This document shows positions 34,566 to 54,398 of a stretch of 64,000 nucleotides of DNA, piece by piece. The notes under the pieces were generated by a model, which ran no database searches, had not been told where the DNA came from, and saw only the letters and a program-made list of their open reading frames with translations. This DNA is from Rhodobacteraceae bacterium IMCC1909 (lineage in GTDB: Bacteria > Pseudomonadota > Alphaproteobacteria > Rhodobacterales > Rhodobacteraceae). The position numbers and the translations under genes were made by a program. The DNA lies in the NCBI GenBank assembly GCA_030704425.1, contig JAPDHM010000002.1, forward strand, positions 992,001-1,056,000, read 5' to 3'. The stretch's first letter is position 1, and the number at the start of each line of letters is the position of its first letter.

Positions 34566-34571
34566 AAATTC

Positions 34572-35759: not shown

Positions 35760-35772
35760 GTTTCAGTCCCCC

Positions 35773-36705: not shown

Positions 36706-36722
36706 CTTTTTTAAACAGCCAG

Positions 36723-36875: not shown

Positions 36876-36891
36876 GTTCTATATTCTCCCT

Positions 36892-37047: not shown

Positions 37048-37193
37048 TTTCTTCTCCTGAAAATATGTACTGACGCTGCAAGGCCCCTGCAGCCGGGTTA
37101 CAACAAGGGCACACCCCCTGCCTTAATTCCACTGCCCCATGCGGAAGAGCGGATCTTTGACCCCGGGCCGGTTGGGCGCGGGGAGTCTCTAAC

Positions 37194-37427: not shown

Positions 37428-38884
37428 GATACTCCTCCTGAAATTGACTGAAGGCTTTTGACAGTCTTCAGTAAAACCCGCTCTTCGCCATTCTCGAGGG
37501 CGCTTTTTTCGGCAGCATCTCGCAGAGTTTTGGCGGCGGAAATTCTTGTAAGTATGGGGTGTGAGGCAACAATCGCGTCCAAGGCGGATTGCGCATCCGG
37601 ATCCCATGGAAAATCGCGGCGCAGCGTGGTGGGTGTGGCCGGCGTGGCGTCCATTTCTGTGCCCAGAGGTAGGATGTGAAACAAGGCATCAAACAGGCTG
37701 TTGCACACTTCCTGCAACAGATAGGTCGCGCCCGCATAACCCATAAAGGGCGTGCCGGTTGCCCGGCGAATGGCGGCACCTGGGAAAGAGGCGGGAATGA
37801 ATGAAGGCGCAGGACCAAAGCCGGCCTTCATTTCGGCCAGATACATTTTCTCGTTGATCGAGCCCAAAACCAGCAGGGGTTTTTTCTCATGCATAAGGGC
37901 ACGCACCGCATCATTATTTGTCTTCTGGCCGCGTTGCCGCGATACGGCAAAGGCGCAGGGCAATCCAAGATCGGTCTCAAGATAGTTTTGAATGCCGCGT
38001 GTATAGGTATCATTGGCCACAATGGCGAAAGAGGCGGTGGCGAAAAAATCCTGGGTCACCGAGCGCCACAGATCCCAAACGGGCTTAATGGTGGAGTGTT
38101 TTTCCTGTTCGATAAAGGGTTCCGGATCCAGATCCAGAAGCTCCCCCAAGCTGCGCAGAAACTTCGTGGTGGACTCAATTCCGATAGGGGCTTGGAGATA
38201 GGGCTTGTTGAGCAGTTCACAAAGCCCGCGGCCAAATTCCCGGTACATGCAGATATTTACATCGGCATTCACCAGACCACGCATTTCAGCGATATGTGCC
38301 CCAAGCGGCATCACCATATTGATTTCTGCGCCGATGCCTTCAACGAGGCGTCTTATCTCAGCAAGATCTGATGGCATGTTAAATGTGCCATACATGGGCC
38401 CTAGGATATTCACCCGTGGCGGCGCGCCTTCTTCGCGCTTTTTCTCAGGGGGCATCCGACCTTTCGTCATGCCAAATTCACTGAAAATCCATGTCATCGC
38501 ACGATCGGCTGTTTGCCATTGATCTTCATCAATAGTGCGGGGGAGGAATCTTTGAATATTGGTGCCTTGCGGTGTGACACCGCCGCCAATCATCTCCGAA
38601 ATTGAACCGGTGACCACCACCGCAGGTAAGGCTGGATCCAACACATCCCACGCGCGCTTCATCGAGTCTTCGGTTCCGGATCCCATTTCTTCCTCGCCCA
38701 AGCCTGTGACGACGATGGGCAATTCATGTGGGGGCAATCCGTCGGTGTAGTGCAGAACTGAGGTGACGGGCAGGTTTTCGCAGCCGACCGGGCCATCGAT
38801 GATGACTTGCAAGCCTTTGGTGGCGCAGAATGCATAAACAGCGCCCCAATAGCCTCCTGCACGGTCATGATCTTGCACCAGCAT
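37424..38884 (-). CDS. bchZ: BchZ, chlorophyllide a reductase subunit Z
   Basis: 486 residues, nitrogenase-like beta-type subunit. Starts [20 protein letters not shown]; cluster-ligand region [21 protein letters not shown] near 32-52. Forms the YZ heterotetramer that reduces ring B of chlorophyllide a. ATG overlaps the bchY stop by one base (TAATG) and the stop overlaps pufQ, so the string bchC-X-Y-Z-pufQ is tightly coupled. Confidence 0.96.
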
Positions 38885-40461
38885 TAAATCATCTCCGCCG
38901 CTTTGGCCGCACGGGCTTTTTTCTCAAGCTTTTTGAGATTCACCGCTCGGAAATTGGGTTGCAGGTTGGGTTTACCTGCCCAAATTCCACTGGTATCGCC
39001 CCGGCCGACACCCTCAAAGAAGGAACGCATGTGGTCCATACGAGCTTTGTTTCCCAAGGCCGCATTGATCACCTGTGCCAATGAGCCCGCGCCTGCAGCT
39101 CCCATCAAAGGCCGCGCAGAAATCAAATTTGTGAAATAAAGCGAGGGTATTCCCAGCTCTTTACCCTTCTGGACAACGGGCGTTGTGCCGATGGCCAGAT
39201 CAGGATGAATGGCTTCCATGGCGGCGCAATCATCTTCCAATGAGGCGCGGAATTTGACTTTTACCCCGTGGGATTCGAGCCATTCGGCATCCTGTGCCGA
39301 CCAAGGTGTTTTCGGACAAGCCGTGCCCACATAGGGAACATCTGCACCGCTTTCGATCAGCAGGCGGGCCACCAAGAGCTCACTGCCCTCATAGCCCGAT
39401 AGGGTTATTGTGCCTTTGATCGGCGCTTGTTTTAGGGCTTGACGAATTTGAGGCACAAATTGGTTTTGTGCCGCCGCGATGACATCCGCTGGAAGCGCAA
39501 AAGCCTCCCCAATCGCTGCCAGCCAAGCGGCTGTGCCCTCGGAGCCGACGGGTGCGGAGCCTATAATCGGGCGCCCTGCGGCTTCAAATTCACGGATGCT
39601 GGCGGTGTAAAACGGGTGAATGGCCGCCACCGCCCCGCAGTCCAAAGCGGAATAGAGTTCGCGCCATTCGCGGCAGGGAACAACGGTGCCGGCCGCCAGG
39701 CCAAGCGGTGCCAGCATTTGCCCAATGACCATAGGATCAGCTGGGAACATTTCACCCAGCAGGCTGACCGTGGGTCGATCCGATTTGCCCATGGCCGGCA
39801 TCGGCACGGGGCCGGCGGCAATTTCTTTGCGGGCATAGTTCAGCATTGCACCGGACAGCACATCCTTGGCCTCTGCGTGGGTTGGAATGCCGAAGCCTGG
39901 CACATCAATACCAACAACGCGCACACCATTGATTTGTTCGGGCAAGAGCCGCAAAGGCACACCGGAGGCCGTTGGCACACATAGATTTGTGACAATAATC
40001 GCATCAAGCTTTTCGGGATCTGCGATGTCATGCACCGCCTCGCGAATATCTTCAAACAGCTTGCCCGTGACCAGAGTTTCCGAATTGAACGGCACATAGC
40101 CCACTGAGCGCCGCGCCCCATAGAAATGCGACACGAAGGTCAATCCGTAAACGCAGCAGGCAGATCCGCTCAAGATTGTTGACGTGCGCTTCATCCGCAG
40201 GCCGACCCGCAGCGAGCCAAAGGCAGGGCACATGCTTTGCGGTTTTTCGTGCGGTCCTTGCGGGTAATCTTTGGCGTATTGGTCCAAGATTTCTGACTTG
40301 CCAGCCGCGCGCGCTGCGGCCTGAAGGGTATCTACCCCGGCGGAGCAACCACCCTCGGCCGCTATAGCCTTGGAGGCTTCGCTGGCCTCAATGACTTGCA
40401 ATGTGCCGGAGGCATCGTAGCTGACGTCAAAACCTTGGCGATTGGCCTCAGACATCATCAT
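38884..40461 (-). CDS. bchY: BchY, chlorophyllide a reductase subunit Y
   Basis: 525 residues, nitrogenase-like alpha-type subunit. Cys-containing blocks [17 protein letters not shown] and [20 protein letters not shown] provide the [4Fe-4S] ligands. Three tandem ATG codons at the start (40461, 40458, 40455) overlap the end of bchX; the third gives MSEANRQGF and cannot be told apart from the first by eye. Confidence 0.96.
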
Positions 40462-41452
40462 ATACCACTTCTAAACTGGCGCGTGGCGCCGCTTTTTTGC
40501 CGCGCATGTCCATGTCTGTGGCGGGCACTAACTGGTAATCGCCGCCCGTGTCTTTGGCGTCAAACAGGGCCAAGAGGCCATCTTGATCCAGTGGCGTCGG
40601 GCGCACGGGTGGCGCGAGGCCGACAGCTTCTCCCAATTGGCCAAACAAAGCGCCCCATTGCGATTCGGAAGTGCCAACAATTTGATAGTTTGCAGATTTC
40701 TTGCGCAGGTCATCATCTTGTGGTATCGCCGCCAAAATGGGGATATCGACAGCCTTGGCAAAAGCCGCGGCCTCACCACTGCCATCATCTTTGTTGATAA
40801 CCAGTCCAGCGACACCCACGTTTCCGCCAAGCTTTCGGAAATATTCGACCGCCGAGCACACGTTATTGGCCACATAAAGAGACTGAAGGTCATTGGAGGC
40901 CACCAGGATGACTTTTTGTGCCATATCGCGTGCAATCGGCAGGCCGAACCCGCCACAGACGACATCCCCTAGGAAATCAAGCAGAACATAATCGAAGTCC
41001 CAGTCGTGGAATCCCAATTTTTCGAGTAATTCGAATCCGTGAATAATCCCACGGCCACCGCATCCGCGTCCAACTTCCGGGCCGCCGAGCTCCATGGCAA
41101 AAACACCACCCCGTTTGAAGCATACGTCGCCAATTTTCACTTCTTCGCCGGCAATCTTCTTTTGCCCGGAGGTTTCGATGATCGTGGGGCAGGCCTTGCC
41201 TCCGAAGAGCAAGGAGGTTGTGTCTGATTTTGGATCGCATCCGATCAGCAAGACGCGCTTGCCTTGCTCGGCCATCATATGGCTCAAATTGGCCAGGGTG
41301 AAAGACTTACCGATGCCGCCTTTTCCATAGATAGCAATAATTTGAGTTTTGCTGGTGGGTTCACCCTGTGGCACCTCAAGGGAGATGTCTTCATGAGCTT
41401 CATCTCGCAACCGCTGATCGAAATTCTTCAGATTTGGCACTTCATCTTTCAC
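40448..41452 (-). CDS. bchX: BchX, chlorophyllide a reductase iron protein
   Basis: 334 residues from GTG 41452, which overlaps the bchC stop (GTGA) and has GGGAGA eight bases upstream; the frame also has a TTG at 41467. NifH-like, with P-loop GKGGIGKSF and cluster Cys regions RGCGGRG and VVCGGFG. Supplies electrons to BchYZ. Length equals R. capsulatus BchX (333). Confidence 0.96.
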
Positions 41453-42390
41453 GACGTTTTCTCCCAATTGAGCATCATTTTCAGACAGGACGACTCCCGA
41501 AAGGCCGTTTCATAGGCCTCAGGCGCATCGGTTGCTGATGATGAATGTGTGATCAACCCGCCAAGGCTCAGAGCACCGCTCTCAACCAAAGCACGTGTTG
41601 CGGTTAGGTCGTCGCGGTCCCATTCTGCGGCCACGCGAAACTTGGCTTCTTTCATAAAGGCTGGTGGAAAGGCGAAGCTTATAGGGTCGGTGTAAAAGCC
41701 AGCCAGGACAATCTCGCCACCTTTGGACAGGCGGCCAATCAATTGAGCCAGGACATCCGTGGACCCAGAGGCATCATAGATAGAATTGTAATCTTTTCTT
41801 TGATCATCTTCTGGCGCCACGACCTGATAGCCCTTAGCGCCCATACGGCGGGCAGGATCAATTTCCCAAACTGTTGGCGGCGGTGCGCCAGCGGCCACGG
41901 TGAGGCGGGCCAGCAGGCGTCCTAAGACCCCATGACCTACGATCAAATCTGGTATGGATTTTCCGGGTCCAGCCATGGCGTGACGGGCAGTGGCCGCCAG
42001 GGCCAACAAAGCCCCTTCCGCGCCCATCGCACCGTCCAATTTTGTAACTCGATCTTCATTGCTGACCAGATAACGTGCGGCACCGCCAAAAAGCCCAAAA
42101 GCGCCATCATAGCAATTGGCACCGGGTACAAAGACCGTATCTCCGGGTTTAAAGGCGCTGGACTGCGGCGCTTCAACCACTTCACCGGTTGCTTCATATC
42201 CCGGCACAAGCGGGTAGCCCATCCCTGGGAAAGGGGGCATTTGTCCGGACCAAAACAGTTTTTCGGTTCCTGTCGAAATGCCGGAATGCTTAATTTGCAC
42301 AACCAATTCTTTCGCCTGTGGCGCAGCTACAGTGAGCGTGTCGAGACGGATATCTCTGGGCCCATTTAAGACGACAGCAGTTGTCTGCAC
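41449..42390 (-). CDS. bchC: BchC, bacteriochlorophyllide a dehydrogenase
   Basis: 313 residues from GTG 42390 with AAAGGGAG upstream. Zinc-type alcohol-dehydrogenase fold: [13 protein letters not shown] near 36, [14 protein letters not shown], then a nucleotide-binding half ([15 protein letters not shown] near 155). Oxidises the 3-hydroxyethyl group to acetyl. First gene of the bchCXYZ-puf superoperon, behind a classic pair of PpsR boxes. Confidence 0.95.
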
Positions 42391-42450
42391 AGCAAAGCTC
42401 CCTTTGGGATTTCATAACTGGGACATGCCAGTTTGAAATTTCTCATGTAT

Positions 42451-42468
42451 TGTACTTTAAAAGTGACA
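42451..42468. promoter_or_regulatory. PpsR/CrtJ box (proximal) of the bchC promoter
   Basis: TGT-N12-ACA at 42451-42453 / 42466-42468, overlapping the predicted -10. Eight bp from the distal box, the spacing known for cooperative CrtJ/PpsR binding at bchC. Confidence 0.85.
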
Positions 42469-42482
42469 TACTTAACTGTCAA
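42454..42482 (-). promoter_or_regulatory. Candidate sigma70 promoter of bchC
   Basis: On the minus strand TTGACA (42477-42482) and TAAAGT (42454-42459) with a 17-bp spacer, each hexamer overlapped by one PpsR box. Confidence 0.65.
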
Positions 42483-42494
42483 CTAATATTGACA
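42477..42494. promoter_or_regulatory. PpsR/CrtJ box (distal) of the bchC promoter
   Basis: TGT (42477-42479)-N12-ACA (42492-42494), ending 1 bp before the crtF stop codon and overlapping the -35 element. Confidence 0.85.
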
Positions 42495-42495
42495 G

Positions 42496-43623
42496 TTAGC
42501 CAGAAGCAACTTTGCGGGCCTCTAGACAGCGTGTGACAAAGGCGCGGGCGGGTTTCGGTGTCTTGATGATGTCAAAGCCGGCTTGGCGACAAAGCGCCGA
42601 AATTTCCTGAATTGAGCGCGTTTTTCCCGTGCGCATCGCCAATGTGTAAAGGGCGAAATAGACATCGCCCGCCGGTTCTGGGCAGGCGCCCCCGGACATA
42701 GGTTCAGAGATAATCAGCCGCCCCCCCACGGGCAGGCTCGCCCAGCACTTGGCCAAAAGCATCGCCACGGTCTCATTGGTATGGTCGTATAGCACCCGGA
42801 TCAAGCTGATAGAATCGGCGCCTTCGGGAATGGCGTCTGTTTTAAATGACCCGCAGGCAATCTGCGTGCGGTCATCCATGCCTGCGGCTGCGAATCTCGG
42901 AGCGGCGGTGGGTGCGACCTGTTCCAGGTCGAACAACATCAATTTCACATGTGGATGCGCCCGACCGACATGCTCGAGAAAAGCGCCAGAGCCACCGCCA
43001 ACGTCAAGCAATGTGCCCACTGTGGACAGATCGAGGCTGCGCAGCGTATCTTCTGCGACTAATTCTTGACTTCGGGCCATCAAATCGGAATAGGTTTTGG
43101 CCGCCTGCGGCTCCATCTCTCCGCCAAACACATAGGGCCAAAAATCGGCCAGCTCTGTTTGTGTATCGCCTCGGAAAAAAGCAGCTGGATCAGACAGATC
43201 GCGATAGAGGACATCGTGGTGTCGGATCATATCACTTAGACCCGGCACTCCGAGCAAAGCTGCGCTGGTTTTGCTCAATGCAAAGCGCCCACCGCCCTTG
43301 GAGCGCAATAGTTTTAAGGCCACAGCTGCCCGCAACAAAATCGTCATCCGGTCCTGTGGCACTTTGCAAGTCTCGGCAAGTTCCTCAAGTGTTTTTGGAC
43401 CCTTTAACAAAAGGTTGAAGATATCGAATTGCACCAGCGCCATAAGAACTTGTGAGTGGCAAAACCCGGCCAAAAGACCAAATAATGCGGCGCCTTCACG
43501 TCGAACCATCCGCCGAGTTAGGAAACTTTTTGCCGCCCATTTTTGGAATTTGCGCGAGGCAATCAGACGGCTTGACCATCCAGAAATCTCATACCTCCCG
43601 CCGGCCTCACGTTCACCCGGCAT
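42496..43623 (-). CDS. crtF: CrtF, demethylspheroidene O-methyltransferase
   Basis: 375 residues. N-terminal dimerisation/winged-helix part (FGLLAGFCHSQVLMALVQF near 48) and a SAM-binding domain with GTLLDVGGGSGAFLEHVGRAHP near 207. Methylates the 1-hydroxyl of demethylspheroidene/hydroxyneurosporene. ATG overlaps the crtE stop by one base. Confidence 0.94.
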   Translation of the reverse strand: MPGEREAGGRYEISGWSSRLIASRKFQKWAAKSFLTRRMVRREGAALFGLLAGFCHSQVLMALVQFDIFNLLLKGPKTLEELAETCKVPQDRMTILLRAAVALKLLRSKGGGRFALSKTSAALLGVPGLSDMIRHHDVLYRDLSDPAAFFRGDTQTELADFWPYVFGGEMEPQAAKTYSDLMARSQELVAEDTLRSLDLSTVGTLLDVGGGSGAFLEHVGRAHPHVKLMLFDLEQVAPTAAPRFAAAGMDDRTQIACGSFKTDAIPEGADSISLIRVLYDHTNETVAMLLAKCWASLPVGGRLIISEPMSGGACPEPAGDVYFALYTLAMRTGKTRSIQEISALCRQAGFDIIKTPKPARAFVTRCLEARKVASG

Positions 43624-44510
43624 TACTCACCAGGGTGAAAATTTGAGTGTTTGTTGCGCCATTTCACGGGAGTTAACATTTCTGCTTGGGCATTGACCAT
43701 TTTGGCCAACATGGCTTCGCCGGGGCAGCGTGGAATAGAAGAGATGGCGCCGCCTAAGATATTTTTCATATGGGAAATCGCGCCCTCGATGCCGTATTCC
43801 GCAACCGCGTTTGGCCGCCCATGCAGGTCATCTTGCCCGGCGGGTTTGCCCAACTCGGCTTCATTGTAAAGAGCATCGCGTAGGTCATCGGCTACTTGAA
43901 AAGCTTCACCAATACGAGATCCCAGCTCATCCCATTGTGCACCATCTTGGCCAGCAGCAATCGCGCCCATTTGCGTTGCGGCGACGAAAAGGGCACCAGT
44001 TTTTGCTCTGTGATAGGCACGCAAATCTATTTTCTGTTCACTTTCCCAGCCCTGTCCGGCGCATATGCCATTGGGCATTCCGGTCTGCTCGGCCAGAATG
44101 TTCATCAACCCAATTGCGCGCTGTGGATCAATGGAGGCATGGCGCGTGAGAATTTGAAAGGCCATTACGATGAGACTGTCGCCAGCCAAAACCGCAAGCG
44201 GCTCACTATAAGCACGGTGAAGGGAGGGTTTGCCCCGCCGCGTTTCAGCATCGTCAAAGCACGGCAGATCATCATGCACCAAAGAGGCGCAGTGAATACA
44301 TTCCAAAGCGGCCGCGGCCGCATTGGTCAATTCCGGGCGATCATCACCGCAGGCCGCGGCGACACTCATCAAGATGGTTGGGCGAATACGCGCGCCACCG
44401 GGGCTGACCGCATAGTGCAATGCCGAGGCAAGTTTGGCAGGGGACGGGGCGGTTTGCCCCAAGTTTATGGCATCTGATATCGCCGCTTCAATTCGGGTAC
44501 TAAACCCCAT
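43623..44510 (-). CDS. crtE: CrtE, geranylgeranyl diphosphate synthase
   Basis: 295 residues from ATG 44510 (MGFSTRIEAAISDAI); the frame is open nine codons further. Prenyltransferase with the first Asp-rich motif in VHDDLPCFDD (about 86-95) and the second in QVADDLRD. Provides GGPP for carotenoids and the bacteriochlorophyll tail. Transcribed with crtF, divergent from crtD across a gap with two PpsR boxes. Confidence 0.95.
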   Translation of the reverse strand: MGFSTRIEAAISDAINLGQTAPSPAKLASALHYAVSPGGARIRPTILMSVAAACGDDRPELTNAAAAALECIHCASLVHDDLPCFDDAETRRGKPSLHRAYSEPLAVLAGDSLIVMAFQILTRHASIDPQRAIGLMNILAEQTGMPNGICAGQGWESEQKIDLRAYHRAKTGALFVAATQMGAIAAGQDGAQWDELGSRIGEAFQVADDLRDALYNEAELGKPAGQDDLHGRPNAVAEYGIEGAISHMKNILGGAISSIPRCPGEAMLAKMVNAQAEMLTPVKWRNKHSNFHPGE

Positions 44511-44544
44511 GATCTCGTCCTCACATTCAAAAGCCATTCAAAAA

Positions 44545-44562
44545 TGTAATCTCTTGATGACA
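44545..44562. promoter_or_regulatory. PpsR/CrtJ box 1 between crtE and crtD
   Basis: TGT (44545-44547)-N12-ACA (44560-44562). Overlaps the -35 of the predicted crtD promoter; 7 bp from box 2. Confidence 0.8.
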
Positions 44563-44582
44563 TATGTAATGTAAACTAGAAT
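44554..44582 (+). promoter_or_regulatory. Candidate sigma70 promoter of crtD
   Basis: TTGATG (44554-44559), 17-bp spacer, TAGAAT (44577-44582). Each hexamer lies in one of the two PpsR boxes. Confidence 0.65.
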
Positions 44583-44587
44583 GGACA
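44570..44587. promoter_or_regulatory. PpsR/CrtJ box 2 between crtE and crtD
   Basis: TGT (44570-44572)-N12-ACA (44585-44587), overlapping the predicted crtD -10. Confidence 0.8.
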
Positions 44588-44633
44588 CATCAGGTGGATC
44601 TGTCAATCGAAAGCTGTGAAGGAGGCCTGTGAG

Positions 44634-46109
44634 ATGCAGCACGTCGCCATTATCGGAGCCGGCATAGGAGGTCTCGCGGCCGCAATGCGGCTGGCCCATG
44701 GCGGCGTGAAGGTGACAGTTCTCGAGCGTCAAGCCACCCCCGGAGGCAAAATGCGCAGCTTGCCCTCTGCCGCCGGTATGATCGATGCGGGCCCAACAGT
44801 TTTAACCATGAAACCTGTTTTTGAGGCGCTTTTTCGCGAGGTCGGCTGTCAATTGGCTGATTACGCTACGCTGATACAAGAAGACATCTTGGCCCGTCAT
44901 TTTTGGCGCGACGGCACGCGCTTGGACCTCATGCGCGATCGGCAGGCCAGTTTAGAAAATGTGCGTCACAGTTTTGGCACGGCGGCGGCGGCTGAGTTTC
45001 ACCGCTTTTCGCGTGATGCGCAGTATCTGTTTGAGCAGCTCAATGATCCGATGATGCAATCGGCAGTACCGGCGTTGCGTAGGATGATTCCGGTGATGCT
45101 GAGATCTCCCGCCACAGTTATGCGGATGGATCCGCTGCGGTCTTTGGCCCAATCCCTCACGCGCAGGTTTTCCGAGCCGCGGCTGGCACAGCTTTTCGCC
45201 CGCTATGCCACCTATATCGGTGGCCTGCCGCTGGCCTCGCCAGCGCTGCTTGCTTTGATCTGGCATGTGGAAAGTCTGGGTGTTTGGCATATCAAAGGTG
45301 GCATGAAACAATTGGCCTATGGCATGGAGGCCTGTGCCAAGACTCTGGGTGCTGAATTTCATTATGATAGCTGTGTCACAAAGTTTGAGCGTGGCGGCTC
45401 GGGCGAATATCACCTTGAATGCGATGGCCGTTTCCTGTCCTGCGATGCGGTCTTGTTCAATGGGGATCCAAATGCCCTGGCCCGCGGGCTCTTGGGGCCG
45501 GAGGCCAGCGCCGCCACCGCCCCTCAAGCGACAATGCCGCGCAGTCTTTCGGCCCATGTCATGAGCTTCGCTGCGCAAGTCCAAGGCCTGCCGCTCGCGG
45601 CGCATAATGTGCTTTTCGCGGCAGATCCAGATCAGGAGTATAGGCCATTGGCGCAGGGTGCACCACAACATGATCCAACGCTCTACATTTGTGCTCAAGA
45701 TCGGTTTGGATCCACAACGCCCAGTGGGCAAGAGCGATTTGAAATAATCCTAAACCATCCGCCCAGCGCAGAAACGGCAGTCCCCTCACAGAAGGTTCGC
45801 GAACAATGTCAGACAATACTTCTAGATCACCTCACGCGTCACGGGCTGAGCTTCACACCGCGCCCACCGCGCAGTACGCTGACGATGACCGAGGATTTCG
45901 CGCAGATGTTTCCGGGCTCGGACGGATCCCTCTACGGGCGGTCCCCGCATGGAATGATGGCGGCCTTCGCGCGTCCAACCGCCAGAACGAAAACCAAGGG
46001 ACTGTATTTGGTGGGCGGGGGAGCGCATCCGGGGGCCGGGGTGCCGATGGCGACACTCTCCGCCAAGCATGCGGCCGCGGCGATCTTGAGCGACCTCACT
46101 TTGACATAG
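44634..46109 (+). CDS. crtD: CrtD, methoxyneurosporene/hydroxyneurosporene desaturase
   Basis: 491 residues from ATG 44634, with GGAGG eight bases upstream (a GTG at 44616 extends the frame but lies before that site). N-terminal FAD fold VAIIGAGIGGLAAAMRLAHGG and C-terminal LVGGGAHPGAGVPMA, as in CrtI-type oxidoreductases. Introduces the 3,4 double bond in the spheroidene branch. Followed at once by crtC. Confidence 0.94.
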   Translation: MQHVAIIGAGIGGLAAAMRLAHGGVKVTVLERQATPGGKMRSLPSAAGMIDAGPTVLTMKPVFEALFREVGCQLADYATLIQEDILARHFWRDGTRLDLMRDRQASLENVRHSFGTAAAAEFHRFSRDAQYLFEQLNDPMMQSAVPALRRMIPVMLRSPATVMRMDPLRSLAQSLTRRFSEPRLAQLFARYATYIGGLPLASPALLALIWHVESLGVWHIKGGMKQLAYGMEACAKTLGAEFHYDSCVTKFERGGSGEYHLECDGRFLSCDAVLFNGDPNALARGLLGPEASAATAPQATMPRSLSAHVMSFAAQVQGLPLAAHNVLFAADPDQEYRPLAQGAPQHDPTLYICAQDRFGSTTPSGQERFEIILNHPPSAETAVPSQKVREQCQTILLDHLTRHGLSFTPRPPRSTLTMTEDFAQMFPGSDGSLYGRSPHGMMAAFARPTARTKTKGLYLVGGGAHPGAGVPMATLSAKHAAAAILSDLTLT

Positions 46110-46111
46110 AG

Positions 46112-47020
46112 GTGCCGCCAAGTGGGTATGCCTGGTGGTATATTGATGGCGTCAGCGATGATGGCAAGCGTGCCGTTTCTGTCATCGCATTTATCGGTTC
46201 GGTCTTCTCGCCATGGTATGCTTGGTCGGGCCGTGGGAATCCTAGCAATCATTGCTGCATCAATGTTGCAACCTATGGTCGAGGTGGCCGCTTTGCCATG
46301 ACAGACCGTGGCCAGACAGCGTTGCGGCAAACTTCAGATATGCTCACCATAGGCCCATCGTCCCTGCATTGGACCGGAAAGAAATTGGTGATTGATGTGG
46401 ATGAAATATCTTCATTGCCCATCATTTCTAGAATGCGGGGACGGATCACTTTGACCCCGCCGGCCCTAACACAAATTGAATTGCCGCTCACAGCTGATGG
46501 GGCCCATGTCTGGCGTCCGTTTGCTCCAATTGCGCGTATTTCTGTCAATCTGGAGGCGGAGGGCTGGCAGTTTGATGGGCATGGCTATTTTGACAGCAAC
46601 TTTGGCACGCGCGCCCTAGAGGAGGATTTTAGCTCTTGGACCTGGGCTCGGTATCCGACTCAGTCAGGGGCAACCTGTTTTTATGATGCTGAGCGCCGCG
46701 ATGGCACGCGCTTGGATGCGGCCATTGGATTTACCCCAGACGGCCAGGCCGCTCATGTTTCGGCGCCGGGATCTGCGCGCTTCAATCGAACGCTCTGGGC
46801 TCTTCCCCGCGCCACCCGTGCTGATCCAGGTTATCGACCAAAGCAGATCAAATCCATGCTCGACGCGCCATTTTACTCACGGTCCGTTGTCGAAACCGTG
46901 CTGAATGGTGAGCGGGTGCAGGGGGTGCATGAAGCGCTCGATCTCGACCGCTTTGACTCACCGATCATCAAATCCATGCTGGCTTGCCGTGTGCCGCGCC
47001 GGGCACAGTGGAAATTTTAA
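46112..47020 (+). CDS. crtC: CrtC, acyclic carotenoid 1,2-hydratase
   Basis: About 302 residues from GTG 46112, 3 bp after the crtD stop. Start uncertain: the frame is open for 300 bp upstream inside crtD, but the conserved CrtC sequence begins near PPSGYAWWYIDGVSDDGKRA. Other family blocks: VFSPWYAWSGR, GPSSLHW, GYFDSNFGTRALEEDFSSWTW. Adds water to the psi end of neurosporene/lycopene. Ends abutting the convergent crtB stop (47021). Confidence 0.88.
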   Translation: MPPSGYAWWYIDGVSDDGKRAVSVIAFIGSVFSPWYAWSGRGNPSNHCCINVATYGRGGRFAMTDRGQTALRQTSDMLTIGPSSLHWTGKKLVIDVDEISSLPIISRMRGRITLTPPALTQIELPLTADGAHVWRPFAPIARISVNLEAEGWQFDGHGYFDSNFGTRALEEDFSSWTWARYPTQSGATCFYDAERRDGTRLDAAIGFTPDGQAAHVSAPGSARFNRTLWALPRATRADPGYRPKQIKSMLDAPFYSRSVVETVLNGERVQGVHEALDLDRFDSPIIKSMLACRVPRRAQWKF

Positions 47021-48061
47021 CTACTCTGCGAGCATAGCGCCGCTGGATTGGGCGCGTTCTTTGCGTTTCAGCTCGGCCATGGCGGCTATAAAAGCGCCGG
47101 TATGCCCTTGGCCCCATGACATGGCATGGCGTTCGTTGATGGCCACGGCATCAACTAAAAACTGAACCTCCTGCAGCGGTCGCGCGTAGAGCACCGGGGA
47201 CCTTGGCATGACCAAACCTGCGGCTGTTCGGAGCGACGATTTTGCAAGAAGCGCCATTTTCTGTGCTTTATTTGTTCGGCCACGGTGGGTGATGGAATCA
47301 TAGTGATTGCGGGCCACGGCTTGACCGATTGCGTCATAAATATAGCGGGCCGCATAGATTCCCATACGGGCATTCAGCGGTAATGCGGCAACGCCGGCCT
47401 CGGATCTCACATAGAGCGCATGGGCCTCGGATAATAGTTTTTTAACCATACGGCGCAGTTCTGGCGTCGCCTTGGTCACGTTCAAAACTTGCTGTGGATC
47501 AAGCGCTTCAGCATGGATCCACTCAAGTGGCAGGTAAATTCGTCCTGCCCGTGCATCCTCTCCCACATCCCGCGCAATATTTGTCAGCTGCATCGCCACA
47601 CCCAAATCGCAAGCGCGCGCCAATGCGTCTGCATCGCGCACGCGCATCAAGACACACATCATCGCACCCACGGCAGAGGCCACGCGGGCGCAATAGCTGC
47701 GCAGGTCCGAGAGGCTGGAATAGCGGTGCTCCATTGCGTCCCATGCCAAACCTTCCAACAAAGCTTCGGGCAGGGCCGCTGGCATTTCGAAATCCTCCAC
47801 TACTGAAGCAAAGGCCCGATCCTCGGGGGCATTGCGCGGTCGTCCCGCATAGACAAGTGCCAACCGTTCTTGTAATTTAATCACGGCGCGGGTCTTGTTC
47901 TGCCCTTCATCCACTTCGTCATCGGCCAATCGGCAAAAGGCATAGAGTGCCAAGGCCGGATCACGAACGGAGGCGGGTAATAATTTTGATGCGGCATGAA
48001 AAGACAATGATCCGGTGCGGATCACGTTGCGGCAATGGTCCAGATCATCAGGGCGTATCAT
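47021..48061 (-). CDS. crtB: CrtB, phytoene synthase
   Basis: 346 residues; head-to-head prenyl synthase. First Asp-rich motif ADDEVDEG (about 47-54) and second NIARDVGEDARAGRIYLP (about 177-194). Condenses two GGPP to phytoene. ATG overlaps the crtI stop by 4 bp. Together with crtI forms a minus-strand pair. Confidence 0.96.
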   Translation of the reverse strand: MIRPDDLDHCRNVIRTGSLSFHAASKLLPASVRDPALALYAFCRLADDEVDEGQNKTRAVIKLQERLALVYAGRPRNAPEDRAFASVVEDFEMPAALPEALLEGLAWDAMEHRYSSLSDLRSYCARVASAVGAMMCVLMRVRDADALARACDLGVAMQLTNIARDVGEDARAGRIYLPLEWIHAEALDPQQVLNVTKATPELRRMVKKLLSEAHALYVRSEAGVAALPLNARMGIYAARYIYDAIGQAVARNHYDSITHRGRTNKAQKMALLAKSSLRTAAGLVMPRSPVLYARPLQEVQFLVDAVAINERHAMSWGQGHTGAFIAAMAELKRKERAQSSGAMLAE

Positions 48062-49602
48062 TCAGCGGCCATCCGTGTTTTGCTCTGTGCAACCGGCGCA
48101 TCAGGCACAAGTTTTGACAAGACCTCTGCGCTGGAGATGACACCAGGCAGCCCGGCGCCCGGATGCGTTCCTGCGCCAACAAGATAGAGGCCGCGTGCCT
48201 CTTCGCTCACGTTATGGGGTCGGAACCAAGCGCTCTGCAGAATGCGTGGCTCAATGGAAAATCCTGCGCCATGCGGGCTGAGATAGCGATCCTCAAAGGT
48301 TTCGGGGGTGAAAATTGTTTCTGTTGAAATGCAGGCTTCGAAGCCGGGCATCAATTTCTCCACTTCGGCGGCCACCTTGGAGCGGTATATCGGCATCTCC
48401 TTTTGCCAATCGACTTTGTTCTTCCAGCCCAAATGTGGGACGGGTGATAGTACATAGAATGTATCATCTCCCGCGGGCGCGACACTTGGGTCGGTCACAG
48501 ATGGCCGGTGGATATAGAGGCTCATGTCGTCCGACAAAAGGCCTTTGAAAAAGATGTCTCGCAACAGGCCCTTATAGCGTGGTCCATTGGCGATCGTATG
48601 ATGCCCCACATCCGCCCATCGGCCCGCGGTTCCCCGCGTTCCAAAATACCAAACGAATAAGCCCATTGACCAGCGCTTGCGCGCAAGTTTTCTGGTCGTC
48701 CAGCGTCGACGGCTGTGTTTGCGCAGGAGGTGATCATAGGTATGACCGGCATCGGCATTGCTTACAATCAATGGCGCATCGAACCTTTGGCCGTCGTTGA
48801 GAACAACCGCTTGCGCAGCCCCGTTCTCAATAAGAATTTCATCCGCGACTGCGTTTTGGTGAATTTGCCCGCCTTGGGCGCACACCACTGCGGCCATGGC
48901 ATCCGCAATCTGTTGCACCCCGCCCATCGCGTAATGCACACCATAAGTTTTTTCCAAATGCGCCACCAACGCATAGATTGAGGTGACATGCATCGGGTCG
49001 CCACCGATGAACAAGGGGTGAAAGGAGAGGGCCATCCTGAGCCGCTCATCTTTGACGCGCCGCGCGGCCAGACCGTAAATTGAACGATCCGCGCGCAACA
49101 TGGCAAATGTCGGCAGGACTTTTAGGGTTTCCCAAAGCTGGTGCATGGGCTCGGCCACCATGCCCTCATAGCCAACGATATAGCGTTTCTGCGAGTCTTT
49201 CAAAAAGCGTTTGTAGCCGGACAGATCTGCAGGGTTCAGCCTCTGGACTTCGGATTGCATTTTTTCATCATCGCCGCTGGCCCGAAAATATGACCCATCT
49301 GGCCAACGAATCTCATAGAAGGGCTCGAGCGGCCGCAGATCTACATCTGCGTGAAAATCTCGACCACAGGCGGCCCAGAGTGTTTCAAACACTTTCGGCA
49401 TAGTGACAATCGTTGGCCCCAAATCAAATCGGTGACCATCTTGTGTGACTGAGGAGCCACGGCCACCAACACGATCAAGCTTGTCCAACACAGTGACCGC
49501 ATAGCCCTTTGCGCCCAACCGCATCGCTGCCGCCAACCCGCCCAGGCCGGCGCCAATCACAACCGCGCGGTTGTCTTGGGTGCTTTGATCAGGGTTGGTC
49601 AT
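48058..49602 (-). CDS. crtI: CrtI, phytoene desaturase
   Basis: 514 residues from ATG 49602 (MTNPDQSTQDNRAVVIGAG) with GGGCGAG upstream; the open frame continues to 49698 across PpsR boxes. FAD fold VVIGAGLGGLAAAMRLGAKG at the N-terminus and LVGAGTHPGAGLPGV at the C-terminus. Three-step desaturation of phytoene to neurosporene in this pathway type. Divergent from crtA. Confidence 0.95.
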   Translation of the reverse strand: MTNPDQSTQDNRAVVIGAGLGGLAAAMRLGAKGYAVTVLDKLDRVGGRGSSVTQDGHRFDLGPTIVTMPKVFETLWAACGRDFHADVDLRPLEPFYEIRWPDGSYFRASGDDEKMQSEVQRLNPADLSGYKRFLKDSQKRYIVGYEGMVAEPMHQLWETLKVLPTFAMLRADRSIYGLAARRVKDERLRMALSFHPLFIGGDPMHVTSIYALVAHLEKTYGVHYAMGGVQQIADAMAAVVCAQGGQIHQNAVADEILIENGAAQAVVLNDGQRFDAPLIVSNADAGHTYDHLLRKHSRRRWTTRKLARKRWSMGLFVWYFGTRGTAGRWADVGHHTIANGPRYKGLLRDIFFKGLLSDDMSLYIHRPSVTDPSVAPAGDDTFYVLSPVPHLGWKNKVDWQKEMPIYRSKVAAEVEKLMPGFEACISTETIFTPETFEDRYLSPHGAGFSIEPRILQSAWFRPHNVSEEARGLYLVGAGTHPGAGLPGVISSAEVLSKLVPDAPVAQSKTRMAAE

Positions 49603-49621
49603 AAATTTCTCGCCCGCCATC

Positions 49622-49639
49622 TGTCTAGAATTATTTACA
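49622..49639. promoter_or_regulatory. PpsR/CrtJ box 1 between crtI and crtA
   Basis: TGT (49622-49624)-N12-ACA (49637-49639), 20 bp upstream of the crtI start. Confidence 0.75.
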
Positions 49640-49677
49640 ACCATAGGTCTTATGAGCTTCCCAATGCAAGGATAATG

Positions 49678-49695
49678 TGTCAACATATTCTGACA
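49678..49695. promoter_or_regulatory. PpsR/CrtJ box 2 between crtI and crtA
   Basis: TGT (49678-49680)-N12-ACA (49693-49695), within a longer TGTGTC...GACACA palindrome 22 bp upstream of the crtA start. 38 bp separate the two boxes. Confidence 0.8.
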
Positions 49696-49716
49696 CATTT
49701 ACCAGGTGCACAGGGC

Positions 49717-50421
49717 ATGACGCAGATCGTCACAATTAGTTTCTTTCGTTTTGGGTCCGTTCGCTCGCGACTTTGGGCCTTCGCTATGATGGGTCTGGCC
49801 AGAGGGCAGATGTCGCGCGTACCGGGTATTGGATTTTGGAAATTATTTGGATCTGGCTCCAATGAAGGCTTTACGCCCAAACCCAATGTGTCTGTCTACG
49901 CGGTGCTGGCGACTTGGCCGGATCGGCAAACCGCGGAGCGCAGCTTGCAACAGAGCGCTATTTTCGCACGTTACCGCCTTCACGCCACCGAAAATTGGAC
50001 TGTTTTTATGAAAGCGGAGACAGCGCGGGGCCAGTGGTCGGGCCAAACTCCATTTTCCACGACGACTCAAAATCAGAATGGCCCGCTTGCGGTGATCACC
50101 CGCGCCACGCTGCGGCCGCGAAAACTGGCGCGATTTTGGCGCCGTGTCCCTAATATTTCGCAGGTGATTGGCCAAGATCCCAATGTTGTTTTCAAGATCG
50201 GAATTGGTGAAGTGCCCTGGTTCCAACAGGTGACCTTCTCCATATGGCCCAGCTTGGAGCATATGAACAATTTTGCACGCAAAGGGCATCATGCGCGGGC
50301 CATTCAGGCCGTGCGGATCGAGGGATGGTTCAAAGAAGAACTCTACGCCCGGTTTACCCTCATCGCAGACACAGGCACTTGGGAGGGTGACTCCCCTCTA
50401 AAAAAACTGGATATCTCATGA
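49717..50421 (+). CDS. crtA: CrtA, spheroidene monooxygenase
   Basis: 234 residues from ATG 49717 (MTQIVTISFFRFGSVRSRLW); upstream ATGs at 49675 and earlier lie in or beyond a PpsR box. Family blocks SRVPGIGFWKLFGSGSNEGF and GIGEVPWFQQVTFSIW are clear. Oxygenates spheroidene to spheroidenone, so pink-red pigment under air is predicted. Stop overlaps the bchI ATG (ATGA), the usual crtA-bchI coupling. Confidence 0.95.
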   Translation: MTQIVTISFFRFGSVRSRLWAFAMMGLARGQMSRVPGIGFWKLFGSGSNEGFTPKPNVSVYAVLATWPDRQTAERSLQQSAIFARYRLHATENWTVFMKAETARGQWSGQTPFSTTTQNQNGPLAVITRATLRPRKLARFWRRVPNISQVIGQDPNVVFKIGIGEVPWFQQVTFSIWPSLEHMNNFARKGHHARAIQAVRIEGWFKEELYARFTLIADTGTWEGDSPLKKLDIS

Positions 50422-51425
50422 AGCAGCCTTTTCCTTTCTCAGCCATTGTTGGACAGGATGATATGAAACTGGCCATGGTGTTAACCGCTATTGATCCATC
50501 GATCGCAGGGGTTCTTGTCTTTGGAGAGCGTGGCACCGGCAAATCCACGGCGGTGCGGGCTTTGGCGGGACTTTTGCCGCCAATCCTCGCTGTAAAGGCC
50601 TGCCCGGTGAATAGCGCTGACATAAAAGATTGCCCCGCGTGGTGCGAAATATCGGACGCGAGTGTGCAAAGCATCGCAACGCCCGTTGTGGATCTGCCTT
50701 TGGGTGCGTCGGAGGATCGTGTCACCGGGGCGCTCGATATCGAAAAAGCATTAACCAAGGGTGAGAAAGCATTTCAACCTGGCCTATTTGCCCAGGCGAA
50801 CCGCGGGTATCTTTATATAGATGAGGTGAATCTTCTTGAAGATCACATTGTGGATCTATTGCTGGATGTGGCGCAATCGGGTGAAAATGTCGTGGAACGC
50901 GAGGGTCTGTCCATTCGCCATGCCGCGCGTTTCGTATTGGTTGGCTCTGGCAACCCGGAAGAAGGCGAATTGCGGCCGCAATTGATGGATCGCTTTGGAC
51001 TGTCTGTCGATGTGCTGTCCTCTACAAATATTGATGAAAGAATTGAAGTCATAAAGCGCCGCGACGCTTATGAGAATGACCATGAGGCCTTTATTGCGCA
51101 TTGGCAGTCGGAAGACGCCATTCTGCGGGCGCGCATTGTCGCCGCGCGCGCAGCTTTGGCAGATTTACAAACCGCCGATAGCGCCCTGCGCCGCGTCGCA
51201 GAGCTTTGCATCGCCTTGGGTTCGGATGGGTTGCGCGGGGAATTGACACTTTTGAAAGCGGCGCGGGCCTTTGCTGCATTTGCAGGTGATGAGGCCGTCA
51301 CAGATGAGCATATCCGCAAGACCGCCGTGCTGGCCCTGCGCCATAGATTGCGCCGCGATCCTTTGGACGAGTCTGGCTCAAGCAGTCGGGTGGCGCGGAC
51401 CGTCTCAGAAATTTTAGGCGATTGA
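50418..51425 (+). CDS. bchI: BchI, magnesium chelatase AAA+ subunit
   Basis: 335 residues. Walker A GERGTGKST at about 35-43, Walker B LYIDEVNLLEDHIVDLLLD near 135, sensor region GSGNPEEGELRPQLMDRFG. Hexameric ATPase that drives Mg2+ insertion with BchD and BchH. One base separates its stop from the bchD ATG. Confidence 0.97.
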   Translation: MKQPFPFSAIVGQDDMKLAMVLTAIDPSIAGVLVFGERGTGKSTAVRALAGLLPPILAVKACPVNSADIKDCPAWCEISDASVQSIATPVVDLPLGASEDRVTGALDIEKALTKGEKAFQPGLFAQANRGYLYIDEVNLLEDHIVDLLLDVAQSGENVVEREGLSIRHAARFVLVGSGNPEEGELRPQLMDRFGLSVDVLSSTNIDERIEVIKRRDAYENDHEAFIAHWQSEDAILRARIVAARAALADLQTADSALRRVAELCIALGSDGLRGELTLLKAARAFAAFAGDEAVTDEHIRKTAVLALRHRLRRDPLDESGSSSRVARTVSEILGD

Positions 51426-51426
51426 T

Positions 51427-53079
51427 ATGACCCTTTGGGAGAGGGCGCAGCTGGCGATTACGCTCCTTGCGATAGATCCCCAACGGCTTGGGGGCTTGGT
51501 TATTCGTGCCCGCGCCGGCCCCGCTCAGGCCGCAATGCTTGCCGCCGTTCAATCGCTCGATCTGGCCAAGGTCAAGTTGCAGCATCACATGACGGTTGAG
51601 GTTCTCAACGGCGATATTGATTTAACTGCCTCCTTAGCGGGGCGCCAATTGGTGACGCGCAAAAGTATTTTTGACTGCGCACCGTCATTGTTCATACTTC
51701 CTATGGCGGAGCGCAGCGCACCACAGTTTTCTGCGCGAATATGCCAAGCCTTAGAGGCGGGCCGTGGTCATGCTCTTATCGCCTTGGATGAAGGCGCGGA
51801 GGTAGGGGATGGCCTGCCGGATGCGCTGACAGATCGCCTGGCGTTTCATGTCACCCTCGACGATTTGGCCTTGCAAGATTTATCACCCATGACATTGCCC
51901 AGATCATTCGACGACATCCGCGCTGCGGTCCGTGGTGTAACTCTTCCGGCTGATGTGATAGAGGAGGCTGTTATCCTGGCCGCATCGCTCGGCATTTCAA
52001 GCCTTCGTGCTCCGCTCTTGCTGGGCTATGTGGCGCAAGCTCATGCGGCCCTTCACGCCCGATATGAGGTGACGGAAGAAGATTTAAAACTGGCCGTGAT
52101 GCTCGTTTACGCACATCGGGCCACGCGCTTGCCTCAGGACCCAGAGCCGGAGGCGCCATCTGAAGAGACAAACCCAGCTGAGGCGCCGCAAGACCCAAAT
52201 CAAGCCATACCGCCGAATGACTTAATGATCGAAGCCGTCAAGGCCGTCCTGCCGCCGGGTGTTTTGGCCCAGTTACAAAGTGTGGTAAAACAGCCTGCGT
52301 CTGGCTCGGGATCTGGCGCGCGCCGCAAAGGAAATCACCGCGGGCGTCCCTTACCGGCCAGATTGGGCCCCAAGAACAGTGGTGCCCGGGTTGATCTCGT
52401 GGCCAGCTTGCGGGCCGCAATTCCTTGGCAAACTCTGCGCAAGGCCGCAAATCCTGAGGCCGTGGGACCGATTTTCAAAGCCTCTGATTTGCGTCATAAA
52501 CGCTACGAAATTGGGTCAGATCGCCTGCTTATTTTCACGGTGGATGCGTCAGGCTCCGCTGCCGTTGCTCGATTGGCTGAGGCCAAGGGCGCGGTCGAAC
52601 TGCTGCTTGGCGAGGCCTATGCTCGACGGGATCATGTGGCGCTTTACGCGTTCCGTGGAACGCAATCTGAGGCGTTACTGCCTCCAACAAGATCACTTGT
52701 GCAAACCAAAAAGCGGCTGGCCGCGCTCCCCGGTGGCGGAGCCACGCCCTTAGCTGCCGGGCTTGCGGCCGCGTTTCAACTTGCTTTGCAAGAACGGCGC
52801 AATGGTCTAACGCCGACGTTGATTTTGCTAACTGATGGGCGTGCCAATGTGGCGCTTGATGGATCGAATGATCGCTCGCAAGCTACGGCGGACGCATTGA
52901 TGTTGGCACAAAAGATTGCTGAGGCGCAGATCCCGGCTTTGGTTATCGATACAACCATCCGGCCGGAGAAAACGCTACAAACCCTGGCTGGGAAAATGCG
53001 GGCAAACTACATTGCTTTGCCCCGCTCGGATGCAAAATCAGTGTCCGGTGCCATCTCTTTAGCTTTGGCACATTCGTGA
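51427..53079 (+). CDS. bchD: BchD, magnesium chelatase subunit D
   Basis: 550 residues: degenerate AAA+ domain without an intact Walker A (about 1-230), Pro/acidic linker (about 238-268, EPEAPSEETNPAEAPQDP) and a C-terminal von Willebrand A integrin-type domain with MIDAS DASGSAA near 367 and LLTDGRANVAL near 470. Platform for BchI assembly. Overlaps bchO by 4 bp. Confidence 0.96.
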   Translation: MTLWERAQLAITLLAIDPQRLGGLVIRARAGPAQAAMLAAVQSLDLAKVKLQHHMTVEVLNGDIDLTASLAGRQLVTRKSIFDCAPSLFILPMAERSAPQFSARICQALEAGRGHALIALDEGAEVGDGLPDALTDRLAFHVTLDDLALQDLSPMTLPRSFDDIRAAVRGVTLPADVIEEAVILAASLGISSLRAPLLLGYVAQAHAALHARYEVTEEDLKLAVMLVYAHRATRLPQDPEPEAPSEETNPAEAPQDPNQAIPPNDLMIEAVKAVLPPGVLAQLQSVVKQPASGSGSGARRKGNHRGRPLPARLGPKNSGARVDLVASLRAAIPWQTLRKAANPEAVGPIFKASDLRHKRYEIGSDRLLIFTVDASGSAAVARLAEAKGAVELLLGEAYARRDHVALYAFRGTQSEALLPPTRSLVQTKKRLAALPGGGATPLAAGLAAAFQLALQERRNGLTPTLILLTDGRANVALDGSNDRSQATADALMLAQKIAEAQIPALVIDTTIRPEKTLQTLAGKMRANYIALPRSDAKSVSGAISLALAHS

Positions 53080-53951
53080 TGAACTGGCAGCACGCAAAGC
53101 ACTATTGGCCCTTTGCGCAGTATTCGCAGTTTACGCTGCAAAAACCGCATTTATGGCATATTCAGGATATCGGAACTGGGCCGGTGATTTTGCTGATTCA
53201 TGGTGCTGGCAGTACAACCCACAGCTGGCAATACCTCGTGCCTTTCCTAACGGATAGATACCGCGTGATTATGGTGGATCTGCCGGGTCAAGGTTTTACA
53301 CGCCTGGGTGCGCAGCAACGTTGCGGGTTGGATCACATGGCTGAAGACCTAACGAGCTGTTTGACGGCGCTTGATCTCGCGCCCAAGGTCATTATCGGCC
53401 ATTCCGCGGGCGCTGCAATTGCGCTTCGCCTTGCGGAGCTTGCGAAGTTTGACTGTAAAGTTATAGGAATCAACGCTGCGCTTGATCACTTTCGCGGTGT
53501 AGCGGGGGTTTTATTTCCGCTTTTGGCAAAGGCCATAGCCAACATGCCGTTCTCAAGCAGTCTCCTGAGTAAAATTGCCGGTCATGATCAAACAGTCGAT
53601 CGCATTCTCAAAGGCACCGGTTCAACTCTCACGGCGGCGGATTTAGAATTTTACAAAGAGTTGATGCGTAGCCGCTCTCATATTGGGGCCACCTTGCAAA
53701 TGATGGCGCAGTGGGATCTTGAACCGCTATTGGCGCGGTTGCCGAGATTACAAACTGAGACCCATCTGATTGCGTCTTCCAATGATCTTGCTGTGCCCTG
53801 CGCAACGTCCCAACGGGCGGCCGCTTTGTTGCCGAATGCAGATTACCAAGCCCTGCCCAATCTTGGGCATCTGGCGCATGAAGAGGACGCCGCCACCATC
53901 GCTGCCTGCATTGCGCCAATGTTGGATTTGGGCTGCGCTTCTGGGACATAA
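53076..53951 (+). CDS. bchO: BchO, alpha/beta hydrolase of the Mg-chelatase operon
   Basis: 291 residues. Oxyanion region LLIHGAGSTTHSW near 45, nucleophile elbow GHSAGAA (about 109-115) and the catalytic His in NLGHLAHEE near 275. Always linked to bchID in purple bacteria; the hydrolysed substrate is unknown. Third gene of bchIDO. Confidence 0.92.
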   Translation: MMNWQHAKHYWPFAQYSQFTLQKPHLWHIQDIGTGPVILLIHGAGSTTHSWQYLVPFLTDRYRVIMVDLPGQGFTRLGAQQRCGLDHMAEDLTSCLTALDLAPKVIIGHSAGAAIALRLAELAKFDCKVIGINAALDHFRGVAGVLFPLLAKAIANMPFSSSLLSKIAGHDQTVDRILKGTGSTLTAADLEFYKELMRSRSHIGATLQMMAQWDLEPLLARLPRLQTETHLIASSNDLAVPCATSQRAAALLPNADYQALPNLGHLAHEEDAATIAACIAPMLDLGCASGT

Positions 53952-54068
53952 GGCCGGCTGAGACGGGCAATCCCCACGCGATCACCGTCGTCAACCTGAA
54001 GTTGCGCCTATCATCCAAACCTTAAAATATCTTGTATAAAAGCCGTTTTTTGCATAGGACTTCCGCCT

Positions 54069-54398
54069 ATGGGAAAGATTGATTTGTCGAATTTAGATTT
54101 TGAGAGGTTGGAGCCTCAGATCTCCGAAGCTGCGCGGTTGATGGAGATGCTGTCGCATCCTGCGCGGCTGCGGATTCTTTGCACCATGCTGGGCGGCGAG
54201 AAAAATGTACAGGAGTTGGCGATCAATGCGAGCCTGTCACAGCCGGCCATGTCGCATCATTTGCGCAAGTTGCGCGACTCAGAGTTGGTGAACACCCGGC
54301 GCAACAAGCAAACCATATATTATTCCCTGAAAGGCGAGCATGTGGCGGCCGTGTTGGAAGTCTTGCACGGCTTATACTGCAGCGAGCTTATTCTTTAA
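54069..54398 (+). CDS. ArsR-family regulator with SqrR/BigR-type cysteine pair
   Basis: 109 residues, winged helix-turn-helix with recognition region SLSQPAMSHHLRKLRDSELV (about 55-74). It has exactly two cysteines, C38 (RILCTM) and C104 (GLYCSEL), 66 residues apart, the same spacing as C41 and C107 of R. capsulatus SqrR, which form a tetrasulfide link on reaction with persulfides and release DNA. SqrR represses sulfide-oxidation genes and affects photosynthesis genes. It lies 117 bp after bchO. The likely target here is the palindromic promoter at 4642-4670. Its end overlaps the next minus-strand gene by 11 bp. Confidence 0.87.
   Translation: MGKIDLSNLDFERLEPQISEAARLMEMLSHPARLRILCTMLGGEKNVQELAINASLSQPAMSHHLRKLRDSELVNTRRNKQTIYYSLKGEHVAAVLEVLHGLYCSELIL

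Follow-up and report, generated by a model that had tools for sequence, protein, structure and literature searches.

A dithiol ArsR-type repressor and its probable sulfide-detoxification operon lie on either side of the photosynthesis gene cluster of Planktomarina

Results

Genes and features of the locus

The stretch of DNA analysed here, the window, comprises 64,000 nucleotides of Rhodobacteraceae bacterium IMCC1909, a member of the genus Planktomarina. A minus-strand operon lies on one side of a photosynthesis gene cluster (PGC) and the gene of an ArsR-family repressor, ARSR, on the other (Table 1).

Table 1 Features of the window, with the evidence on which each assignment rests.
Feature	Position	Strand	Evidence or remark
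sulP, SulP-family anion transporter, last gene of the operon	562..2286	-	profile matches
Sulfur transferase (ST), TIGR01244 / BLH_phosphatase	2329..2754	-	profile matches
ETHE1-like persulfide dioxygenase (PDO), matches the dioxygenase part of Blh	2816..3700	-	NF040641, 372.6 bits
DUF6691, second YeeE-like half	3738..4178	-	profile match
yeeE, YeeE/YedE-family membrane protein (Sulf_transp), first gene of the operon	4168..4614	-	profile matches
Probable operator, consensus TATATAA-N10-ATATACAA	4645..4671	.	motif scan; about 30 bp upstream of the yeeE start
PGC	4673..54021	.	ends approximate: left junction 4672-4788, right junction 53951 to about 54021
tspO, leftmost PGC gene	4789..5268	+	NF047825, 213.5 bits
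bchO, rightmost PGC gene	53076..53951	+	TIGR03056, 323.4 bits
Repressor leader, common to the PGC-bearing genomes and two PGC-less sisters	54022..54068	+	alignment and blastn; motif score 5.1 bits
ARSR, ArsR-family dithiol repressor, C38/C104	54069..54398	+	ORF, profile matches, alignment, AlphaFold model, Foldseek

The sequence-only reading of this DNA had placed a persulfide-oxidising operon at the far edge of the PGC. This operon is real, and the run of YeeE, a second YeeE-like half and PDO is that of a yeeE-yedE-PDO detoxification operon. The match of PDO to NF040641 covers profile positions 138-423 and stays below the whole-protein cut-off of 625 bits; the two domains of Blh are separate genes here. 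The regulator does not adjoin the operon across a shared operator, as it lies 49.4 kb away and has an upstream motif score of its own of 5.1.

The PGC block measures about 49 kb. Its leftmost gene, tspO, counts as a PGC gene in D. shibae (PMC6052148); its rightmost, bchO, is read in the same direction as arsR and lies 117 bp upstream of it. On the left, the similarity to PGC-less sites stops at about 4670 (blastn, E 3e-05 and 0.001); on the right it restarts at about 54022, as judged from an eight-row alignment (blastn alone gave only E 9.2). The two junctions share no word of nine or more bases, and one inverted 8-mer was found. Next to ppsR, the left end of the PGC carries a FixJ-like response regulator along with the gene at 6299-7129 (the two within 5295-7129); the same three-gene order occurs in another genome (G123) at 53-54% identity. 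The products of 6299-7129 and 8624-9397 have no Pfam match at 1e-10. On the other side of the PGC the arsR gene and a HemY-like gene are convergent, and their 3' ends overlap by 11 bases (54388-54398).

ARSR is a dithiol regulator of the SqrR/BigR/HlyU kind

The open reading frame of ARSR occupies 54069-54398 (+) exactly, starts with ATG and encodes 109 amino acids. It was proposed before that C38 and C104 are spaced 66 residues apart, and a residue count along the translation confirms this. ARSR has an ArsR-family helix-turn-helix (PF01022, 50.5 bits, cut-off 22; NF033788, 84.3 bits, cut-off 55). An alignment of 18 sequences (ARSR, 16 relatives and a paralogue from the sox cluster of the same genome) shows no variation at either cysteine, and among the named relatives C38 is kept in 80 of 80 and the pair in 74 of 80, so the pair is constrained and not a product of chance. 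In an AlphaFold model built on 41 aligned sequences (mean pLDDT 86.9), C38 lies in the second helix (31-40) and C104 in the last (89-107), and both align with the pairs of SqrR, BigR and HlyU. The winged-helix fold is that of SqrR, BigR, HlyU and YgaV: Foldseek returned HlyU, NolR, BigR, YgaV and SqrR as top solved folds. By sequence the nearest solved relatives are HlyU (72 bits), BigR (66) and SqrR (62). Thus, the kind of protein and both of its cysteines can be read from the sequence. A response to persulfides, as expected of a repressor of the SqrR/BigR/HlyU kind, is probable as part of the overall explanation given below.

ARSR scores 79.1-79.5 bits with the NCBIfam BigR equivalog NF040642, below the curated cut-off of 155. 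Over its own genome this profile ranks the sox paralogue first (96.1 bits), ARSR next and a third protein at 23.6 bits, none reaching the cut-off; it matches proteins in 14 of 14 control genomes, never above the cut-off.

A search of the own genome with ARSR found one other close member, the paralogue at C1:1254995-1255282, which lies near SoxY, SoxA, SoxB and SoxC, each above its own NCBIfam cut-off; the genes directly beside it are presumably soxV and soxS, as judged by eye. The paralogue matches R. capsulatus SqrR with 134 bits and ARSR does so with 62 bits. Therefore, ARSR was rejected as the SqrR orthologue, and of the earlier designation as an SqrR/BigR-type sensor the dithiol type stands, whereas SqrR in the strict sense does not. 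The paralogue is, from its sequence and surroundings, best called SoxR. Between the soxV-like and soxS-like genes (L002, 955-1026) lies a dyad, ATTCATA-N8-TATGAAT, possibly the operator of the SoxR paralogue.

Gene neighbourhoods of ARSR relatives outside the genus

We searched 248 genomes of the family, the own genome and one congener included; 220 had a match at 1e-6. From outside the genus we inspected the 18 best loci, which belong to 17 genomes. Fifteen of these have the relative and PDO in divergent orientation (the exceptions are L053, L058 and L061), and in 11 of the 15 yeeE lies between them, oriented as in the window. The gap from the repressor to the nearest operon gene is 87 to 927 bp in the divergent loci, one of which, L062, encodes a protein closer to the sox paralogue than to ARSR.

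Among the 80 named loci, a divergent yeeE within 2.5 kb accompanies 7 of the 16 repressors with at least 55% identity, and bchO lies upstream instead in two, both from Planktomarina. Of the other seven, five are from Hoeflea, with no yeeE match within 10 kb on either side. The proportion with yeeE is 11 of 36 at 45-55% identity and 4 of 28 below 45%. In one Hoeflea locus (L109, 9900-13353) a repressor with 70-73% identity stands beside a large gene that looks like a molybdenum oxidoreductase (by eye); upstream of this repressor is the element TTATATAAG-N9-ATGTTCA, again with no yeeE match within 10 kb.

Planktomarina sites with and without the PGC

Twenty genomes of the genus were surveyed for the ARSR orthologue (at least 66% identity; 9 of 20), PDO (18 of 20) and BchO (9 of 20). 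BchO is 90-100% identical in six genomes (G000, G045, G260, G265, G252 and G258) and 41-44% identical in three; the latter three have no ARSR orthologue at E 1e-6. In all six genomes with BchO of at least 90% identity the repressor lies between bchO and HemY, and in the five of them with a PDO match yeeE adjoins tspO (the sixth, G258, is a metagenome-assembled genome, MAG, with completeness 77, contamination 5, two BchO matches and no PDO match). Four genomes carry both sides of the PGC on one contig, with about 50.4 kb between PDO and repressor.

Three genomes of a sister clade, G248 to G250, lack the PGC. Neither G249 nor G250 has a BchO match; their gene order is HemY, repressor, yeeE, DUF6691, PDO and ST, with repressor and yeeE side by side, and on the HemY side they carry the same four genes as the window. 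SulP was found only in G250; the genome of G249 is 74% complete and gives two HemY matches. In G248 (L252, 13307-13617) the repressor and DUF6691 are missing, and 24 residues of yeeE are left before PDO; beyond the operon follow amidase, DnaJ and DnaK-like genes, by eye as on the left of the window. A further congener, G251, has arsR and yeeE on a 3.3-kb MAG contig and PDO on another, and was treated as weak evidence; an in-frame stop, probably the natural end, follows LYCA in its ARSR.

In a ten-gene tree the six genomes with the PGC form one clade and the three sisters without it another, both with 100/100 support. Single-gene trees leave the branching between them unsettled, and the ARSR tree even places G249 and G250, weakly supported (81/75), amid the PGC-bearing sequences.

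The arrangement is best explained by a PGC that lies inside an older pair of regulator and operon, and this accounts for the linkage of the two across the PGC. One insertion on the stem of the PGC-bearing clade is the simplest reading of the tree. The opposite direction has to be considered: the PGC may have stood between operator and repressor earlier and been lost from the clade of G248-G250, not gained in the other. The repressor leader of G249 and G250 is also that of the PGC-bearing clade, and the gap between repressor and yeeE is open in both, about 300 and 1160 bp, versus about 120 bp in the nearest outgroups, G240 and SB2. However, a loss takes two events on the tree instead of one; the gaps of the sisters, except for the yeeE/operator side, have no blastn match to the window below E 0.6; and gain of the PGC by transfer has been argued for three Planktomarina species, in a text section that gives no insertion site (PMC10675870). 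We regard a loss as somewhat unlikely and infer an insertion. A gap of about 0.3 and 1.2 kb, together with the same leader, is already present in the PGC-less sisters, so the separation of operator and repressor may predate the PGC. The gap of G250 (L075, 9546-10705) holds a transaldolase-like open reading frame of about 220 amino acids, as judged by eye.

A predicted operator stayed with the operon

In the nearer relatives a dyad, TATATAA-N10-ATATACAA, adjoins the start of the repressor gene. For the motif, 12 distinct sites were chosen by eye among 42 upstream stretches, after the element in the window had already been seen; none of the sites comes from the PGC clade or its sisters and one is congeneric, from the MAG G251. 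The best score in the 64-kb window, 33.9 bits, falls on 4645-4671 (33.4 after the congeneric row was dropped), and the second best, 20.7, on the opposite strand of the same dyad. The best unrelated site, at 60082, scores 10.1 bits, and the maxima of eight random (Markov) windows are 8.1-14.0. Leave-one-out recovered 12 of 12 sites, and 0 of 100 shuffles matched their scores. The other 30 upstream stretches were left out of the motif: three, from near relatives, score 30.0-36.6 and the remainder -5.4 to 17.5, the low values coming from more distant relatives. In seven genomes of the genus with a yeeE side the operator scores 22.1-33.9.

The site is also the sole perfect match of the arms in the genome. 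With up to three mismatches the arms match 48 times genome-wide, versus 83 times for a reversed control. The palindrome at 4646-4667 is present as well, and a search with TATATNAGTGATCACTNATATA and up to three mismatches hits the 3.27-Mb genome here only. As a conserved operator the full palindrome AGTGATCACT was rejected, since the relatives keep the outer arms and not the AGTGATCACT core.

Upstream of arsR in the window, one match to the arms with three mismatches (54032-54056, -) scores 5.1. Across eight genomes the highest-scoring positions ahead of arsR vary in location and reach -3.9 to 7.0; compared with 400 control stretches of 150 bp taken inside the PGC, six of the eight lie above the 95th percentile (2.3) and all stay below the maximum (7.2). 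A second operator upstream of arsR would be at most a remnant. The operator has remained beside the operon, leaving the repressor without a strong one of its own.

That the operon is the probable target of ARSR, as suggested before, is supported by both the loci of the relatives and the operator motif, and on these comparisons we take yeeE-DUF6691-PDO-ST-sulP to be a well-supported candidate target. The motif at 4645-4671 overlaps a possible yeeE promoter. One alternative is that the 27-bp element is no repressor site but only serves yeeE, or served the ancestral arsR, as core promoter. By eye, its minus-strand arms contain TTGTAT and TATAAA, 17 bases apart. However, a dyad with a constant 10-bp spacer that scores on both strands, and that occurs upstream of arsR alone in Hoeflea, looks like a repressor site; in addition, promoter and repressor site are compatible, as the known BigR binds a -10 region. 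A promoter function alone is therefore improbable.

A second regulator is at hand in the SoxR paralogue, which might control the operon while ARSR is an idle leftover. The paralogue is the closer of the two to SqrR, ARSR has lost its adjacent operator, and the PGC-less G248 has lost arsR along with DUF6691 and most of yeeE. Moreover, the ARSR motif gives 12.1 in the soxV-soxS region, above any unrelated site in the window, and some binding of either regulator to the site of the other is possible, to go by the scores. But it is upstream of ARSR relatives that the same dyad is found, also in Hoeflea, at loci where no yeeE match lies within 10 kb; the soxV-soxS dyad is a different one by eye; and ARSR is 88-96% identical within the PGC-bearing clade. 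We consider an idle ARSR very improbable, and ARSR remains the preferred regulator.

The PGC itself gives no sign of control by ARSR

In R. capsulatus, SqrR couples sulfide to photosynthesis gene expression, and the sequence-only reading had extended this to ARSR on the grounds of physical linkage. The linkage does exist in all six genomes with BchO of at least 90% identity, the operator lies between yeeE and the PGC gene tspO, and the PGC contains one match to the arms with three mismatches (36859-36883); but this match scores 0.4, the best score inside the PGC (8.1) does not rise above the random windows, near-matches genome-wide do not exceed those of the reversed control, the three congeners with another PGC have no orthologue at E 1e-6, and the linkage is explained by the insertion, so that control of PGC transcription by ARSR is very improbable. 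The scan of the PGC promoters that had been proposed as a check was carried out with the ARSR motif, not with the SqrR operator of R. capsulatus, and found no sites; PGC promoters were thus rejected as candidate targets. A coupling of sulfide to PGC expression is unsupported.

A link in the other direction is conceivable. In the 117 bp between bchO and arsR, on the same strand, there is no terminator-like site and no match to a sigma-70-type promoter. Boxes of the PpsR type have the motif TGTN12ACA. The window contains 17 of them, none in the bchO-arsR or the yeeE-tspO gap; two, at 49622 and 49678, lie upstream of the bchI-bchD-bchO run, where the open reading frames 48058-49698 (-) and 49576-50421 (+) overlap, and a further one, at 52260, falls within the bchD-like gene. 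The insertion of the PGC could have rewired the circuit: ARSR, freed from self-repression, would be transcribed as the tail of bchI-bchD-bchO, and the dose of the sensor would follow the control of photosynthesis genes by light and oxygen. We put this forward as a speculation that is itself rather unlikely. A promoter of arsR's own may remain, because the leader is common to the PGC-less sisters. If the speculation is true, photosynthesis would set the response to sulfide (the threshold for persulfide detoxification), the reverse of the logic in R. capsulatus.

Discussion

From the evidence above the following picture emerges, which we consider likely as a whole. In the ancestor, operon and regulator would have been divergent, with a single operator between them. 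On the line leading to the PGC-bearing Planktomarina, operator and regulator would then have become separated by a PGC of about 49 kb. The repressor now probably acts on the operon from about 49.4 kb away, behind bchO and without the adjacent operator of its nearest relatives. We infer that reduced ARSR would bind the dyad at 4645-4671, overlapping the probable yeeE promoter, and thereby repress yeeE-DUF6691-PDO-ST-sulP. Persulfides would bridge C38 and C104, as in the homologues, and release ARSR; the operon would then move sulfur anions across the membrane and oxidise persulfide to sulfite.

PigS and the yeeE/yedE/pdo operon of Serratia belong together. PigS has been named a candidate sensor of ARSR's kind that regulates sulfide metabolism genes (PMC10509353), and the Serratia operon is cited in PMC7315123. 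The likeness to ARSR and its operon is drawn from these descriptions, and in Planktomarina the regulator is about 49 kb away with the PGC between, and ST and SulP are added. The same differences hold for Acinetobacter baumannii, where BigR (C34/C100) controls a yeeE/yedE/pdo2 operon (PMC7315123): dithiol spacing (66) and the core of two YeeE-type proteins and PDO are the same.

In the BigR-Blh system of Xylella and Agrobacterium, the repressor (Cys42/Cys108) binds the -10 region and Blh combines sulfur transferase and ETHE1 activities (PMC5823870). Spacing and activities are as in Planktomarina. However, transferase and dioxygenase are separate genes here, the regulator lies outside the operon, and YeeE-DUF6691 and SulP replace the TauE-related exporter.

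HlyU, BigR and SqrR have been described as persulfide or sulfide sensors that use this cysteine pair (PMC10509353, PMC5823870, PMC10451225). HlyU of Vibrio, a persulfide-sensing ArsR protein, is the best solved match of ARSR by both sequence and fold (TM 0.79), but its targets differ and it has been named an activator. With SqrR of R. capsulatus, ARSR has fold and cysteine pair in common; the similarity is limited to 62 bits, the sox-cluster protein is closer, and there is no sign of PGC targets. SoxR of Hyphomicrobium (Cys50/Cys116) belongs to the same sulfane-sulfur kind of ArsR protein (PMC10451225), and the role of SoxR in Hyphomicrobium and Paracoccus fits the sox paralogue of this genome.

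Sensor and operon are thus of a known kind; what is new is the arrangement, created by the PGC lying between them. No description of such an arrangement of regulator, PGC and operon was found in a search of literature titles and abstract openings, with subscription papers mostly outside it.

For an abundant marine lineage, Planktomarina, this gives a picture of the position of the PGC at the level of the site, with sister genomes that show the site without it. The claim that sulfide controls photosynthesis in an aerobic phototroph, attractive but unsupported, is replaced by one that can be tested. The locus is also an experiment of nature on how a regulon persists with its regulator 49 kb away, without an adjacent operator and behind a photosynthesis operon.
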